A stretch of 64,000 nt of DNA from Alphaproteobacteria bacterium (GTDB taxonomy: Bacteria > Pseudomonadota > Alphaproteobacteria > Micropepsales > Micropepsaceae), in assembly GCA_025350465.1 (NCBI GenBank), contig JANXXU010000052.1, positions 124,001 through 188,000 of the forward strand. The letters run 5' to 3'. Below are positions 13,476 to 20,514 of this stretch, in pieces (within the stretch, counting starts at the first letter, position 1; each line of letters starts with the position of its first letter). The notes under the pieces were generated by a model. It was not told the DNA's origin. It saw only the letters and a list, made by a program, of their open reading frames with translations, and ran no database searches. The translations under genes and the position numbers were made by a program.

Positions 13476-14657
13476 TTGCGCATCGGCACGCCGCTGTCGC
13501 CGTCCGCCACCAAGGTGATGCTGCTGGGTGCGGGCGAACTCGGCAAAGAGGTGGTGATCGAGCTGCAGCGCTTGGGTGTCGAGACGATCGCCGTCGATCG
13601 CTACGCCAATGCACCGGCGCAGCAGGTCGCGCACCGCGGCCATGTCATCGATATGACCGACGGTCGCGCCGTGCGCGATGTGATTTTGAAGGAGCGGCCG
13701 CATCTGGTCGTGCCGGAGATCGAAGCGATCGCGACGGATGAGCTCGTGAAGATCGAGGCGGAGGGGATCGCTCGGGTCATCCCAACTGCAACGGCCGTGC
13801 ACACGACGATGAACCGCGAACGCATTCGCCGGCTGGCTGCCGAAGAGTTGAAATTGCCGACTTCGCCTTATGCGTTTTCGTCGTCTCTCGCCGAACTCGA
13901 AGCAGCTGTTGCGCGCATCGGTTTCCCTTGTTTCGTTAAACCGGTGATGTCGTCGTCCGGCAAAGGGCAGAGCAAGATCAGAGATGTAGCCGGCATCGCA
14001 AAAGCATGGGACTACGCGTTGTCCGCCGGCCGCGTGAAGCAGCCGCGTGTGATTGTCGAAGGAGAAATTCGCTTCGATTTCGAGATCACGCTGTTGACGG
14101 TGCGTCATGTCGGCGGCACCGCGTTTTGCGATCCCGTGGGTCATGTTCAGATCGACGGCGACTATGTCGAGTCATGGCAACCGCAACCGATGAGTGCTGC
14201 GGCGCTGGAACGTTCGCGCACGATCGCCAAGAAGATCACGGACGCACTTGGCGGGGCGGGCATCTTCGGCGTCGAGCTTTTCGTCAAGGGCGACGAGGTT
14301 TGGTTTTCCGAAGTCAGCCCACGGCCGCACGACACCGGGCTCGTTACGATCGTGTCACAGCATCAGAGCGAATTTGCCCTTCATGCGCGCGCGATCCTTG
14401 GGTTGTCCGTCGACATCTCTCTGCGGACGCCGGCCGCAAGCGCCGTCATCTACGGCGGAAAGGATGCCAAAGGCATTGCGTTTGACGGCGTCGACGAGGC
14501 GCTGTCGGTGGCGGGCACGGAACTGCGTTTGTTTGGGAAACCAGAGGCGTTCAAGAAGCGGCGCATGGGCGTCGCGTTGGCGCGGGCGAGCGACACCGAT
14601 ACGGCACGCGCCAATGCCAAGCGTGCGGCGTCTTTGGTGAAGCCTGTCGAGCGTTAG
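13476..14657 (+). CDS. purT: Formate-dependent phosphoribosylglycinamide formyltransferase (PurT)
   Basis: 393 residues. I chose the TTG at 13476 because GAGAGGAG (13461-13468) is ideally spaced before it and the protein then begins [16 protein letters not shown], the standard PurT N-terminus. ATP-grasp enzyme that formylates GAR with formate and ATP in purine synthesis. It shows the GAGELGKEV dinucleotide-fold motif, the ATP-grasp loop SSSGKGQS, and metal/ATP ligands near [12 protein letters not shown]. It ends in a 4-base overlap with the convergent ModE-like gene. Confidence 0.95.
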
Positions 14658-15040
14658 CCACGCGCCTTTTGTTTTGGCTTGATGGACCGCTGTACGCTGC
14701 CTCGGCCACGCGCGCTGTTCCTCAAAAGGTTGACTTCTTTCTCGGCCGCCGTTGCCGCCCGCTTCTCGGCGGTGCGGTAGAGCGCCACGACCTTGCGGCC
14801 GAGCGCCGTGAGTGTCGTTCCTCCGCCCCTGATTCCGCCTGCTGAAGCGTCGACCAAGGGCGCTCCAAACGTCGCGCTGGTGTCCTGAACGAGCTTCCAG
14901 GCGTGAGCATAGCTCATGCCCATGGCACCGGCTGCCTTTTGGATCGAGCCGCGCTCTCCCACCAGTTCCAGGAGGCGGATTTTCCCCGGCCCGATCGAGC
15001 CGTGCCCTTCAAGGTCGATGCGCAGTGTGATGCGTGCCAT
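14654..15040 (-). CDS. modE: ModE-like molybdate-responsive regulator, DNA-binding domain only
   Basis: 128 residues from the ATG at 15040 (an upstream in-frame ATG at 15133 would run through the operator, so it is less likely). The protein is a winged helix-turn-helix of the ModE/LysR N-terminal type: [20 protein letters not shown], then [19 protein letters not shown], then an [15 protein letters not shown] wing. It lacks the C-terminal Mop/TOBE molybdate-binding domains of E. coli ModE. Divergent from modA with a ModE-type operator in the gap, so it is the likely regulator of the mod operon, but how it senses molybdate is open. Confidence 0.82.
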
Positions 15041-15106
15041 TAAGCCCAGCCTGACGGCAATCGGCCGGCAAGCCAAGTCCCCTCGTTTGCGTTGTTCGCC
15101 GATCAC

Positions 15107-15130
15107 GTTATATTTGTTTGAGTATAACGA
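15107..15130. promoter_or_regulatory. ModE-type operator upstream of modA
   Basis: CGTTATA (15107-15113) and TATAACG (15124-15130) are perfect inverted repeats separated by 10 bases. This matches the known ModE-box pattern (CGTTATAT...ATAACG) and lies 13 bases before modA, in the gap to the divergent modE-like gene, where binding would block modA transcription. Confidence 0.82.
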
Positions 15131-15142
15131 CATGGGGATCGA

Positions 15143-15913
15143 ATGATGCGGGCTCTCAGTTTCTTCCTTTGCAGCATTGTCTTGGCACTCGGCGGGGCCG
15201 CACAGGCGGACTCGCCTCGCGAGTTAACGGTCTACGGTGCCGCATCGCTGACCAACGCGCTGCAAGACGTGGGCGCGGCGTTCACGGCCGCCGGCGGTGC
15301 AAGGGTCAAATTCTCGTTTGCTGCATCATCGCTGCTGGCACGGCAAATCGAAGCTGGAGCAGACGCGGATATATTTTTCTCGGCCGACACGGAGTGGATG
15401 ACCTATCTCGCCGACCGAAATTTGATTCAGCCCGCGACGCGCCGCGACGTTCTATCGAACCATTTGGTGTTGATCGCACCTTCGAACAGCGCGATAGCGA
15501 TCGAGATCAGGCCAAACTTTCCGCTTGCGCAAGCGCTGGGCGATGGGCGCTTGGCCGTCGCCGATCCCGATAGCGTGCCGGTCGGGAAATATGCGCGCCA
15601 GGCGCTGACCTCGCTCGGCGTGTGGGGTTCGGTGGCAGAGCATCTCGTGCGCGCGGAAAACGTGCGCGTTGCGCTTACTTATGTGGCGCGTGGCGAGGCA
15701 CCGCTCGGCATTGTCTACGAGACGGACGCGCGTGCCGAGCCGAAGGTCAAGATCGTTGGGATGTTTCCGGAGAACACGCATTTGCCGATCGTCTATCCGG
15801 TGGCGCTGACTGCACACGGCATGAGCGCCGGTGCTAGGGCGTTTCTTACATATGTGGAGGGGCCACAGGCGGCGGAGGTGTTCCGGCACTACGGATTCAT
15901 CGTGCTGCGTTAG
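15143..15913 (+). CDS. modA: Molybdate ABC transporter, periplasmic binding protein
   Basis: 256 residues, ATG at 15143 (a second ATG follows directly at 15146). Signal peptide about residues 1-23, ending in GAAQADS. Typical ModA motifs: VYGAASLTNALQDVG at the start of the mature domain and ADIFFSADTEWMTYLADR; C-terminal half shows ADPDSVPVGKYARQAL. It captures molybdate or tungstate in the periplasm. First gene after the operator, and separated from modB by the porin gene. Confidence 0.95.
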   Translation: MMRALSFFLCSIVLALGGAAQADSPRELTVYGAASLTNALQDVGAAFTAAGGARVKFSFAASSLLARQIEAGADADIFFSADTEWMTYLADRNLIQPATRRDVLSNHLVLIAPSNSAIAIEIRPNFPLAQALGDGRLAVADPDSVPVGKYARQALTSLGVWGSVAEHLVRAENVRVALTYVARGEAPLGIVYETDARAEPKVKIVGMFPENTHLPIVYPVALTAHGMSAGARAFLTYVEGPQAAEVFRHYGFIVLR

Positions 15914-15948
15914 TCGGTTTTGGGGAAGTAGGGGAATAGGGGGAATTC

Positions 15949-17622
15949 ATGCGTCGTCAATTTTGGCTCGCGTCGGCTTCAGCCGTCGCGATGATGGTCG
16001 CCTGCCCGCAGGCTGTGCGCGCCGACGAGGCCGACATCGCCAAGCGTCTGGAAGAAATGCAAAAGCGCCTTGATCGACAGGAGAGCGATCTCGCGGCGCA
16101 AAAGGCCGAAATCGTCCAGTTGAAGAGCGCATTGGCCAAACCGAAACCGCGATCGGCGGCGGCCGCTTCGGCTCCGACGGCGGCGATCGCCAGCGCGGAT
16201 GCGCCGGCGACCCAGGCCGACATACAGCAGCTCCGTGTCGACCTCGATCAGCAGAATGCGCGGGCGCGGATCGAAAAGCAGGAACAACCGGTTTGGAGCA
16301 TGGTCAATCTGCGGCCAACGGTGACCAGCCCTGACGGGCGGTTCTCGCTTTCGCTGCGCGGCCTATTCCAGTTCGATGCAGCAAATTACTTCCAGGACGC
16401 ACCAAGGGCGCTCAACGTCGATTTCCGGCGGGGCTCGGTGGGCGCGAGCCAGCGCGAGGTCAACTCCGCGCGCGAGCTGTCGGACGGCGTCAATTTCCGT
16501 CGCGCGCAGATCGGCTTCGAGGGCCGGTTCTGGCGCGACTTCAATTATCGCGTCATCTACGAGTTCGGCGGCAGCGGCACGGAAGGTCCGGCGCGCATCA
16601 ACGACGCGTATGTGAACTACACAGGCCTCGCGCCCTTCACGTTTCAAGTCGGCGCGTTCTTGCCGAACTCGAATATGGAAGATTCGACCTCAGCGACGGA
16701 CATATTGTTCATGGAACGCGCGACCCCGGCCGAACTATCGCGTGCGCTTGCAGGCGCTGATGGGCGTTATGGCGCAGGTGTGCGCGGCAACGGCGAACGT
16801 TGGTCCGCGTCGCTCTATTGGACAGGCGGCACGGTCGGCGATGCAGAGGTCGCGGGCGAACAAAGCTCGCTCGTTGGACGCGTCGCCGGACTCTTGCTGA
16901 CCGACAGCGACTACAATGTACATCTCGGCGCCAACGCGAGTTGGGTGTATCAGCCGCCCGATCAGGGCTCTCTGGTAACGTCAGGGCGCTTTCCTATCCG
17001 CTTTCGCGACCGGCCGGAATTGCGCGTTGACAGCACACGTCTCATCGATACGGGTGCGATCGATGCGAACGGCGCCCATGCCGCGGGCGTCGAGGCGGCA
17101 GCAAATTGGCGGAACTTCTTCTTCCAAGGCGAGTACTTCCAATACGGCATCGAGCGGCGAAACAGCCCAATATCCGACGACCCCAATTTCTCCGGCTACT
17201 ACGCCGAGGCAAGTTGGGTTCTGACAGGCGAGACGCATCGCTACAGCATGGCGACCGCGTCTTACAGCGCGCCCAAGCCCATGATCCCGGTCAGCGCAGA
17301 CGGCGGCTATGGCGCTTGGGAACTAGCGGCCCGTTACAGTCATGTCGATCTGAACTTCCATGAAGGCCTGCCCGGCACGGCTGCGCCTGTCGGCTCGGTA
17401 CGCGGCGGTCAGGAGGACATCTGGACTATGGGCGTTAACTGGTACTTGAACGCCAATTTGCGCGCATCGCTCAACTATTACATCGTCAATGTCGATCGCC
17501 TGAATCCAGCGGGGCCTGGAAATTTGACGCCGTTTGGCCCGGCGCCGGCGACCCCGCCGAATGGCGCGCAGATTGGACAAGACTATGATGCAATCGCGAT
17601 ACGCACACAGTTCGCCTTCTAA
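15949..17622 (+). CDS. OprP/OprO-type porin within the mod operon
   Basis: 557 residues with a signal peptide (about 1-26), a coiled coil (about 28-62, KRLEEMQKRLDRQESDL), a Pro/Ala linker and a second short heptad stretch, then a long beta-barrel of the phosphate-selective porin O/P type ending in the outer-membrane signature Phe (RTQFAF). It lies between modA and modB, 35 bases after modA and 12 before modB, all in the same direction, so it is probably co-regulated by the ModE-like protein. Known OprP porins are anion-selective; molybdate transport is inferred from context. Confidence 0.86.
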   Translation: MRRQFWLASASAVAMMVACPQAVRADEADIAKRLEEMQKRLDRQESDLAAQKAEIVQLKSALAKPKPRSAAAASAPTAAIASADAPATQADIQQLRVDLDQQNARARIEKQEQPVWSMVNLRPTVTSPDGRFSLSLRGLFQFDAANYFQDAPRALNVDFRRGSVGASQREVNSARELSDGVNFRRAQIGFEGRFWRDFNYRVIYEFGGSGTEGPARINDAYVNYTGLAPFTFQVGAFLPNSNMEDSTSATDILFMERATPAELSRALAGADGRYGAGVRGNGERWSASLYWTGGTVGDAEVAGEQSSLVGRVAGLLLTDSDYNVHLGANASWVYQPPDQGSLVTSGRFPIRFRDRPELRVDSTRLIDTGAIDANGAHAAGVEAAANWRNFFFQGEYFQYGIERRNSPISDDPNFSGYYAEASWVLTGETHRYSMATASYSAPKPMIPVSADGGYGAWELAARYSHVDLNFHEGLPGTAAPVGSVRGGQEDIWTMGVNWYLNANLRASLNYYIVNVDRLNPAGPGNLTPFGPAPATPPNGAQIGQDYDAIAIRTQFAF

Positions 17623-17634
17623 CGGCGGGAGCCA

Positions 17635-18324
17635 ATGCTGAGCGACGCTGAAGCGCAAGCCCTGTGGCTGAGTCTGATCGTGGCGACGCGATCGGTGACG
17701 TTCAGCTTGCCGCTTGCCGTTCTCGCGGCGTGGGTGCTGGCGCGCGGACGGTTTCCAGGAAAGACGCTGTTTGATGGGTTCGTGCATCTGCCGCTCGTGT
17801 TGCCGCCGGTTGTTGTCGGCTATTTGCTGCTGCTCGGCTTCGGCACGCGCGGACCGATCGGGCATTTTCTTTATGAGAATTTCGGCGTGCGGTTGGCGTT
17901 CACGAGTGCCGGCGCATCGCTCGCCACGGCAGTGATGTCGTTTCCGCTGATGGTGCGCGCGATTCGATTGGCTTTGGAGGCTGTCGATCGCGGCCTTGAG
18001 GACGCTGCGCGCACGTTGGGTGCGGGCGCTTTAGATCGTTTCGCGTCAATCACCCTCCCATTGATGTTGCCGGGAGTTTTGGCCGGCGCGGTTGTCGCCT
18101 TCGCCGCGAGCCTCGGCGAGTTTGGCGCCGTGATCACGTTTGCGTCGAACATTCCCGGCGAGACGCAGACCCTGCCGCTGGCGATCTATCAAGCGATCCA
18201 GACGCCGAACGGAGACGCCATGGCCGCGCGGCTTGCCACGCTTTCGATCGTGATCGCGTTTGCGGGCCTCCTTTTATCCGAAGTCTTGGCGCGGCGCATC
18301 CGAGCGACAACGGCGGCGCCGTGA
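17635..18324 (+). CDS. modB: Molybdate ABC transporter permease
   Basis: 229 residues with about five to six membrane segments and the EAA loop characteristic of ModB (AARTLGAGALDRFASITLPL, followed by MLPGVLAG). SD-like GGCGGGAG precedes the ATG at 17635. Forms the inner-membrane channel with ModC. The modC start overlaps its stop. Confidence 0.95.
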   Translation: MLSDAEAQALWLSLIVATRSVTFSLPLAVLAAWVLARGRFPGKTLFDGFVHLPLVLPPVVVGYLLLLGFGTRGPIGHFLYENFGVRLAFTSAGASLATAVMSFPLMVRAIRLALEAVDRGLEDAARTLGAGALDRFASITLPLMLPGVLAGAVVAFAASLGEFGAVITFASNIPGETQTLPLAIYQAIQTPNGDAMAARLATLSIVIAFAGLLLSEVLARRIRATTAAP

Positions 18325-19388
18325 TCGAGGTGCAGGTCAAAAAGACGCTCGGCGCATTTACGCTTGACGCGGCGTTTGCATGCGGCGCCGGCGTCACCGC
18401 TTTGTTCGGACGCTCCGGTGCAGGCAAGAGCACGATCGTGAAAGCCGTCGCAGGGCTCGTGCGTCCCGACGGCGGCAGAGTCCAGGTCGGCGATACGACC
18501 TTCTTCGATGCTGCCCGGAGGATCAATGTGGCAACCGAAAGGCGAGGAGTCGGCGTCGTATTTCAGGATGGGCGTCTGTTTCCGCACATGACCGTTCGCC
18601 GCAATTTGCGCTACGGGTATGACCGTGCGCGCGGCGAGAAGCGCGTGACGTTCGAGGCCGTGACGGACGTTCTCGGCATTTCATCGCTACTTGAACGCAG
18701 GCCGGTATCGCTCTCGGGCGGCGAGCGTCAGCGGGTCGCGGTCGGGCGCGCATTGTTGTCGCAGCCGCGCTTGCTGCTGATGGACGAGCCCCTGGCGTCA
18801 CTCGATGAGGTGCGCAAGGCGGAGTTGTTGCCGTATTTCGAGAAGCTGAATACCGAGTTCCGCATCCCGATCCTCTATGTCAGTCACGCGATCGACGAGG
18901 TGATGCGGCTGGCCTCAGACGTTGTGCTTATCGATGAGGGGCGCGTTGTCGCCGCGGGCTCGCTTGCCGACGTGACGAGCCGGATCGACCTACCCCCGGC
19001 GGCCGAGAGCTTCGGTTCGGGTGCGATCCTCGAATGTAGGGTTGAGAGCCATGACGCGTCGCGGGGGCTGACCAATTTGGCGACAGCCCTTGGGCCGGTC
19101 AAACTCGCGCTGATCGAACGCCCGCTCGGTTCGCGGTTGTCGATTCGAATTGCCGCGCGCGACGTTGCGATTGCGTCCGAACGCCCGACAAAAATCTCCG
19201 TCCAAAACATCTTCGACGGCAAAGTCATCGAATTGCGGAGCTTGCCGAACCACATCGTGCGTTTGAAAGTGGCGGTCGGCGGCGGCTATCTATTGTCGGA
19301 AATCACGGCCGAAGCGGCGGCTCGATTGGATCTCAAGCCGGGCCTGCAGGTTGTCGCCTTGGTCAAATCCGTCGCGATCGGGCGCTAA
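18321..19388 (+). CDS. modC: Molybdate ABC transporter ATPase with TOBE domain
   Basis: 355 residues, GTG start overlapping the modB TGA (GTGA). Walker A GRSGAGKST near residue 30, Q-loop FQDGRLFPHMT, signature LSGGERQRVAVGRALL, Walker B LLLMDEPLASLD, and a C-terminal TOBE domain (about 295-350, ISVQNIFDGKVIELRS). ModC hydrolyses ATP to drive molybdate import; TOBE domains can bind oxyanion and regulate it. Ends convergently with a PAS_5 gene 29 bases away. Confidence 0.95.
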   Translation: MIEVQVKKTLGAFTLDAAFACGAGVTALFGRSGAGKSTIVKAVAGLVRPDGGRVQVGDTTFFDAARRINVATERRGVGVVFQDGRLFPHMTVRRNLRYGYDRARGEKRVTFEAVTDVLGISSLLERRPVSLSGGERQRVAVGRALLSQPRLLLMDEPLASLDEVRKAELLPYFEKLNTEFRIPILYVSHAIDEVMRLASDVVLIDEGRVVAAGSLADVTSRIDLPPAAESFGSGAILECRVESHDASRGLTNLATALGPVKLALIERPLGSRLSIRIAARDVAIASERPTKISVQNIFDGKVIELRSLPNHIVRLKVAVGGGYLLSEITAEAAARLDLKPGLQVVALVKSVAIGR

Positions 19389-19417: not shown

Positions 19418-19978
19418 CTACCAGAGTAATTGTTTTCCCGAAACGGAACTTCCGAAGTTCTCCGGCTCGCTGAAAATCGAGCAGCCGAGAATTTGGGTAA
19501 CTGCCGAGCCGTCTTCACTCAAAGGCAGCCAAAGATTCTCGGCGGAGAGAAAGGATATCTTCTTGGCGGCCGTCCGCGGAGCGCTCGTTCGAATGGGCCG
19601 CTTGTACCGAGCCACCGGCTGCAGCGCGGCGAGGAGGCGGCGAACGAGCAAGGCCGTATCGGCCGAGCTGAACGTCGCGCCCGTGAAGTCACGCCCGACG
19701 GCGGCGACGAGAGCCGTGCCGACGAGGCGTACCTTGAACGACTGCCCGTCGTTGATGACCTCGTGGATTTGAATTCGGGGCAGGATCGGTGCCAAAGCTC
19801 GCGGCACGATTTCGGCGCGCTGCGGTCCGATACGCCCCGCTGCGAGTGCGGTCCATTGCGCGAACAATATTTGCAGCTGGGGCGCGATGAGCGTGTCGGG
19901 TCTTGCGAACTCGACAATTAGATCCTCAGGGCCCGACCAAGCAGACTCCGGGAATATTGGTGCCTCCGATCGATCCAT
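19418..19978 (-). CDS. PAS_5-family sensor-like protein (copy 2)
   Basis: 186 residues from the ATG at 19978. It has the PAS_5-type core: an N-terminal DTLIAPQLQILFAQWTAL helix, RIGPQRAEIVPRAL, then a PILPRIQIHEV and FKVRLVGTALV stretch, ending with ENLWLPLSEDGSAVTQILGC. The family is common in Rhodospirillales/Sphingomonadales with no assigned function; no kinase or output domain is attached. It follows a related gene (19990-20514), from which it is clearly paralogous. Confidence 0.72.
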   Translation of the reverse strand: MDRSEAPIFPESAWSGPEDLIVEFARPDTLIAPQLQILFAQWTALAAGRIGPQRAEIVPRALAPILPRIQIHEVINDGQSFKVRLVGTALVAAVGRDFTGATFSSADTALLVRRLLAALQPVARYKRPIRTSAPRTAAKKISFLSAENLWLPLSEDGSAVTQILGCSIFSEPENFGSSVSGKQLLW

Positions 19979-19989
19979 GCGCGCCACCC

Positions 19990-20514
19990 CTATGCCGGGC
20001 CGGAGGCGATCGAGCAGCCGACGACCTGGCTGACACTCAGGCCGTCCTCGGACAGGGGGAGCCACAAGGCCTCGACCGACAGGGTCGAAGGCTTGGTCGA
20101 GGCGATTCGTGGCGCGGTCACGATCAGCGGGATCTTGTCCATCACGATGCGCCGCATGATGGCGACGGCGCGACGGGCAGGCAGGTCGGTGTCGCTGTCG
20201 GAGAAGATTCGGCCTGTCTGGTCGCGGCCAAGGGCGGCCACGATGGCCGTCCCCAACACGCGCGCACGGAAGGTCTCCCCACCGTCAATGACGTCGTAAA
20301 GGTGGACGTGCGGCAGTAGAGCCGCCATGTCGCGAGGCTGGATATCGGCGCGTCTTGGAGCGATCCGACTCCCGGCGCGGGCTGTCCAATAGGCAAAAAA
20401 GGCTTTGAGGCCGCCGGCTTCGATGGCCGACGCTTGAGCAAGGCACAGTCGTGCACCCTCCGGGCCTGGCCATTCCTGGGTGGCATCTCGGGGTCTTGGG
20501 GCAGGAGATGCCAT
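19990..20514 (-). CDS. PAS_5-family sensor-like protein (copy 1)
   Basis: 174 residues. GAGGA lies just upstream of the ATG. Core matches the neighbour: FFAYWTARAGSRIAPRRADI, LLPHVHLYDVIDGGETFRAR, VLGTAIVAALGRDQTG, and EALWLPLSEDGLSVSQVVGC. The shared WLPLSEDG motif and the same length show tandem duplication. Function unknown; a stand-alone ligand sensor is possible. It is divergent from the leu leader region with about 268 bases between. Confidence 0.72.
   Translation of the reverse strand: MASPAPRPRDATQEWPGPEGARLCLAQASAIEAGGLKAFFAYWTARAGSRIAPRRADIQPRDMAALLPHVHLYDVIDGGETFRARVLGTAIVAALGRDQTGRIFSDSDTDLPARRAVAIMRRIVMDKIPLIVTAPRIASTKPSTLSVEALWLPLSEDGLSVSQVVGCSIASGPA

Follow-up and report, generated by a model that had tools for sequence, protein, structure and literature searches.

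Molybdate is generally taken to cross the outer membrane unspecifically, through porins. A porin gene that stands inside a molybdate transport operon raises the question of whether such an operon may include its own outer membrane route. A locus of this type is found in a Micropepsaceae genome (Alphaproteobacteria), in a stretch of 64,000 nucleotides that was analysed as a whole and is referred to below as the window. The sequence-only reading of the window had proposed that the porin is a molybdate/tungstate channel co-regulated with the ABC system. The features that bear on this proposal are the following (window coordinates).

14654–15040, minus strand: modE-like regulator gene, 128 aa, one domain, divergent from modA (TIGR00637, 70.7 bits; HTH_1, 32.2 bits)
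15106–15129, no strand: ModE-type operator CGTTATA-N10-TATAACG (pattern search of window, genome and related loci)
15143–15913, plus strand: modA, periplasmic molybdate-binding protein (TIGR01256, 215.5 bits; NF007958, 268.8 bits)
15949–17622, plus strand: OprP/OprO-family porin gene, 557 aa (PF07396, 184.8 bits; model against OprO/OprP, Z about 37)
16024–16284, plus strand: N-terminal coiled-coil domain of the porin, residues 26–112, mod-linked type (AF2 helices 27–63 and 85–112; trees; heptad pattern)
16285–17619, plus strand: porin barrel, residues 113–557, nearest to sulfate-operon porins (AF2 model, trees, identity)
17635–18324, plus strand: modB, molybdate ABC permease (TIGR02141, 221.5 bits)
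18321–19388, plus strand: modC, molybdate ABC ATPase, GTG start (TIGR02142, 417.7 bits)
about 19197–19376, plus strand: TOBE domain, C-terminal in modC (TOBE, 40.9 bits)

Operon layout, operator and regulator

The products of modA, modB and modC each score above the NCBIfam equivalog cut-offs (TIGR01256, TIGR02141, and TIGR02142), and the modA-porin-modB-modC layout noticed earlier, with gaps of 35 bases (modA/porin) and 12 bases (porin/modB) and a 4-base overlap of modB and modC (−4), is borne out by coordinates and family matches. Scanning of the modA-porin and porin-modB gaps revealed no terminator-like site in either, and because these gaps are short and have no such site inside, the prediction that the porin gene and modABC form one operon is supported. 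A sigma-70 promoter scan of the locus gave no match, which may be expected outside enteric bacteria. On the 3′ side of modC two adjacent PAS_5 proteins are encoded on the opposite strand (19418–20514, minus).

The palindrome before modA, previously placed at 15107, is real: CGTTATATTTGTTTGAGTATAACG occupies positions 15106–15129 and is the single exact match in the window, with 0 matches in 100 shuffles, and across the 4.06-Mb genome a search with CGNTATA-N8..12-TATANCG found no other site. In the E. coli ModE consensus, ATCGNTATATA-N6-TATATANCGAT (PMC545781), 10 bases separate CGNTATA from TATANCG, and the spacing of the window operator is identical. In 2.06 Mb of fetched loci the pattern CGnnATA-N10-TATnnCG was met at 27 sites, 26 of them less than 300 bp upstream of modA, and eight other spacings used as controls gave 0–2 matches each; these loci were centred on modA and the porin, with some duplicate records, so that the count is not independent for each genome, but the position upstream of modA is specific. 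In related species the operator often reads CGTGATA...TATCACG, a symmetric change in both arms.

The divergent ModE-like gene was absent from the sequence-only reading. Its product matches TIGR00637 with an E value of 8e-20 at a score lower than the model cut-off of 98.5, is the only match to this model in the genome, and shows 32% identity to the HTH of a full-length Phenylobacterium ModE when the two are aligned. The molybdate-binding (Mop/TOBE) C-terminal domains are absent from this short protein, and in a TOBE profile search of the genome ModC was the only match. Since the regulator carries no molybdate-binding domain and the sole TOBE of the genome resides in ModC, repression of the operon in response to molybdate may be suggested rather than asserted; in the ModE control claimed earlier, the operator, by its spacing and its position upstream of modA, agrees with the claim, and the domain content of the regulator does not.

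The window shares with E. coli modABC/ModE the modA-modB-modC order and the spacing of the ModE-type operator, but differs in the porin between modA and modB and in the DNA-binding-only regulator. One-domain ModE proteins of Desulfovibrio (PMC545781) likewise consist of the DNA-binding domain only, although the Desulfovibrio sites have the form CGGTCACG-N14-CGTGACCG (PMC545781) and the window operator is of E. coli type. Three PF00384 molybdopterin oxidoreductases are encoded in the genome, which indicates its need for Mo or W.

Recurrent linkage to modA and loss in sister species

In 96 genomes of the window's family modA was searched and loci were counted when the ModA tblastn score was above 200 bits. 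The search of other genomes suggested by the sequence-only reading did return mod-linked porins: the porin is directly downstream of modA in 17 of 63 family loci (16 of 62 fetched, plus the window), and the named relatives include Rhizomicrobium (Micropepsaceae) together with Parvibaculum and Phenylobacterium. In a further case (locus L038) modA is cut by the contig end. Of 13 modA-porin junctions examined at base level, 6 show a 4-base overlap of the porin start with the modA stop (ATGA/GTGA); these include both Parvibaculum loci, and the cultured Parvibaculum sedimenti HXT-9 has this overlap. In Phenylobacterium LY.5 the order is porin-modA-modB-modC-modE, with a ModE that has Mop domains. 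Most family modA loci are without a porin, and in a class-wide sample of 385 genomes no further modA-linked porin was found among the best loci fetched with 1.5-kb flanks. Porins of this type number only a few per genome, so chance adjacency to modA should be rare, and the porin-modA linkage recurs across genomes and is not accidental.

The surroundings of modA vary considerably. In many relatives modBC is located elsewhere in the genome, apart from modA; in most members of genus g5 (L035–L048 and other loci) modA, with or without porin, and modBC are separate, and modA often has, at a distance of a few kb, pstB-like genes and the gene of a predicted membrane transporter (possibly a symporter). 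Two loci have two tandem porins behind modA, likely a duplication within the operon (L043, 6132–9467; L044, 4197–7521), and in one more (L054, 7308–10031; G058) a family porin and a more distant modA-modB-modC operon are divergently oriented.

The sequence-only reading had counted absence of the porin from the mod operons of relatives as a point against itself. Two genomes of the same genus do have no porin: in G001 the order is purT-modE-modA-modB-modC, and in G009 modB follows immediately after modA. In contrast, G010 keeps in the same modA-modB gap a decayed piece that matches porin residues 483–557 and contains in-frame stops, which means that the porin was once present in the G010 lineage and then lost. 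The absence in sister species thus looks like loss, and by these comparisons the porin is an old but dispensable part of the operon.

Porin fold and mosaic ancestry

The assignment of the porin to the OprP/OprO type proved right. Its score against PF07396 (Porin_O_P) compares with a curated cut-off of 20.9, and the AF2 model, built as a single chain (pLDDT 84.1), has an OprP-type barrel that matches OprO with Z 37.0 over 370 residues (rmsd 2.7), the next group, general porins, reaching about 25. The protein ends in TQFAF. Residues R59, R60, and R133 of OprP are conserved in every mod- and sulfate-linked row of the comparison. In the OprP central site, formed by D94, Y62, S124, S125, K121, K126, R34, and R133 (PMC5877670), the window porin retains only S124 and R133, while R34, Y62, D94, S125, K121, and K126 differ; Y62, D94, K121, and K126 are replaced alike in mod-linked and most sulfate-linked porins. 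An attempt to derive the substrate from filter residues failed: because most OprP-site columns do not separate mod-linked from sulfate-linked porins, pore selectivity is not readable from sequence. According to model and alignment, the protein is predicted to be an anion pore that has the OprP fold but no OprP phosphate site. It resembles P. aeruginosa OprP and OprO (phosphate/polyphosphate porins; 2O4V, 4RJW) in family, barrel type and the three arginines, but differs from them in its operon, in its presumed substrate, in the four replaced residues named last and in an additional N-terminal coiled coil some 90 residues long.

In a tree of 92 porins those adjoining modA fall in three places, all among porins upstream of sulfate transporter genes: clade A (19 rows, including Parvibaculum), group B (the window and G026, with an unlinked porin of G029 beside the pair), and group C (the Phenylobacterium mod-linked porin). 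A single origin of the mod-linked porins was rejected (AU p 0.019 for full length with A+B; p 6e-7 for barrels). Recruitment of the window barrel from a sulfate porin is favoured over the reverse direction because sulfate-linked rows preponderate, the porin tree being unrooted.

The same genome has two more porins of the family. One heads a porin-sbp-cysT-cysW-cysA operon annotated by NCBIfam (L104, G000:C6, 1580–7021) with an Rrf2-type regulator gene upstream, and many relatives, as well as Parvibaculum and Phenylobacterium, have the same porin-headed sulfate layout. The third (L105, G000:C24, 7272–8933) sits on a long branch, and neither mod nor sulfate permease genes were detected near it.

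The N-terminal part has another history. In the AF2 model residues of about 26–112 form a two-helix domain outside the barrel, presumably periplasmic; no solved structure aligned to this domain when it was compared as part of the whole porin model. Its motif [RK][LIM][DE]x[ML]Q is present in every one of the 21 mod-linked porins in A and B, in 1 of 32 sulfate-linked porins and in 0 of 37 others. The heptad core of the mod-linked type reads L34, M37, L/I41, Q44, L/I48, Q51, I55, L58, and L62, with Q44 in 21 of 21 mod-linked porins and Q51 in each of the 18 in which this position is present, while sulfate-linked porins mostly have Leu there, after which their helix ends. The first helix of the window porin shares 44% identity with clade A and 14% with the barrel-nearest sulfate porins; for the barrel the values are 42% and 50%, and sliding identity switches sides at about residues 115–140, near the barrel start. 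The porin of group C has no mod-type N-terminal domain.

In the N-domain tree A and B are joined with support of 97–99, and placement of B with its barrel kin is rejected (AU p 2e-5, or 4e-4 under a fixed alignment), whereas in the barrel tree B joins the sulfate porins with support of 100 and A+B is rejected (p 6e-7). Since the trees of the two porin halves reject each other, the window porin is probably a chimera of a mod-type coiled-coil tail and a sulfate-type barrel, a result that comes from quick tree searches with test groups chosen after the first tree and from a domain short and coiled-coil enough for convergence to be possible. Testing clade A alone in the N-domain tree was uninformative, since that split fits both hypotheses.

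Proposed function and competing explanations

It is considered likely that the operon provides a three-layer import route, in which an OprP-type outer membrane anion pore would admit molybdate, probably also tungstate, to the periplasm, ModA would capture molybdate there, and ModBC would pump it into the cell, while one operator beside the divergent, putatively repressing ModE-like protein would switch the whole operon. The pore would then be a channel for divalent tetrahedral oxyanions, expressed together with ModABC for molybdate/tungstate. Because sulfate and molybdate resemble each other as tetrahedral dianions, the kinship of the barrel with porins of sulfate ABC operons fits a molybdate role. 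Of the co-regulated channel proposed by the sequence-only reading, the operon structure and the recurrent linkage to modA are supported, and the molybdate/tungstate substrate and the control by molybdate are putative. The N-terminal coiled coil may link the pore with molybdate import; it might, for instance, serve as a docking site for ModA or give shape to the trimer underneath the pore. A bolder version, speculative and on balance doubtful, is that the coiled coil serves as an exchangeable address tag coupling a generic divalent-oxyanion barrel to ModA, so that the tail and not the filter would make the molybdate pore. In this version the conserved Q44 and Q51, at core d positions, could form a polar and possibly anion-holding layer in a trimeric stalk underneath the pore.

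The shared filter columns and the barrel nearest to sulfate-operon porins would also suit an anion pore of general or sulfate-preferring type that merely shares its transcript with modABC and lets in mostly sulfate or other anions, and the porin is missing from many mod loci. Such a pore is nevertheless unlikely, given that the same genome already has a separate sulfate-linked porin and that the linkage to modA, often with the 4-base overlap, recurs in separate barrel lineages, two of them with the mod-specific N-terminal domain. A phosphate or pyrophosphate pore like OprP/OprO, to which the Pfam name, the closest solved structures and the pstB-like genes that many related loci carry a few kb away from modA could point, is very improbable: the OprP residues Y62, D94, K121, and K126 are not conserved, the pst-like genes are near modA in related loci with or without the porin, and close kin of the porin sit in sulfate operons.

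The mosaic itself may be a recombination accident, in which a sulfate paralogue overwrote the barrel, the 5′ end next to modA remained and the coiled coil has no mod-specific role. The junction near the barrel start, the convergence-prone nature of short coiled coils and the Phenylobacterium case agree with this explanation, but L34, Q44, Q51, I55, and L58 are kept in nearly all 21 mod-linked rows, unlike the 32 sulfate-linked ones, and a pattern kept in the former and differing in the latter suggests selection. The accident is given somewhat less than an even chance, an estimate not additive with the others, for this explanation is compatible with the three-layer import route.

Phrase and word searches of an open-access literature library returned no paper on a molybdate, tungstate or sulfate porin. 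In P. aeruginosa ModA is paired with the outer membrane protein IcmP for molybdate (PMC8602904), which is the only dedicated outer membrane partner for molybdate found described in that search; as in the window, ModA goes together with an outer membrane protein, but no porin is involved. The porin psp of Geobacter and relatives (PMC545781), weakly similar to the same family (PF07396-like), is also under a metal-dependent regulator, Fur, but belongs to an iron regulon with no ABC operon described.

In summary, a porin that is encoded within the mod operon and linked to modA in several genera offers a specific, testable candidate for the outer membrane step of molybdate uptake, and its place in the operon, its recurrence in relatives and its mosaic build suggest a dedicated outer membrane route for a trace metal. 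To the sequence-only reading the present analysis adds that one gene appears to combine a coiled-coil tail of mod type with a barrel of sulfate type. Should the tail indeed direct the pore to ModA, this would be an example of how generic outer membrane pores become assigned to a given ABC importer.
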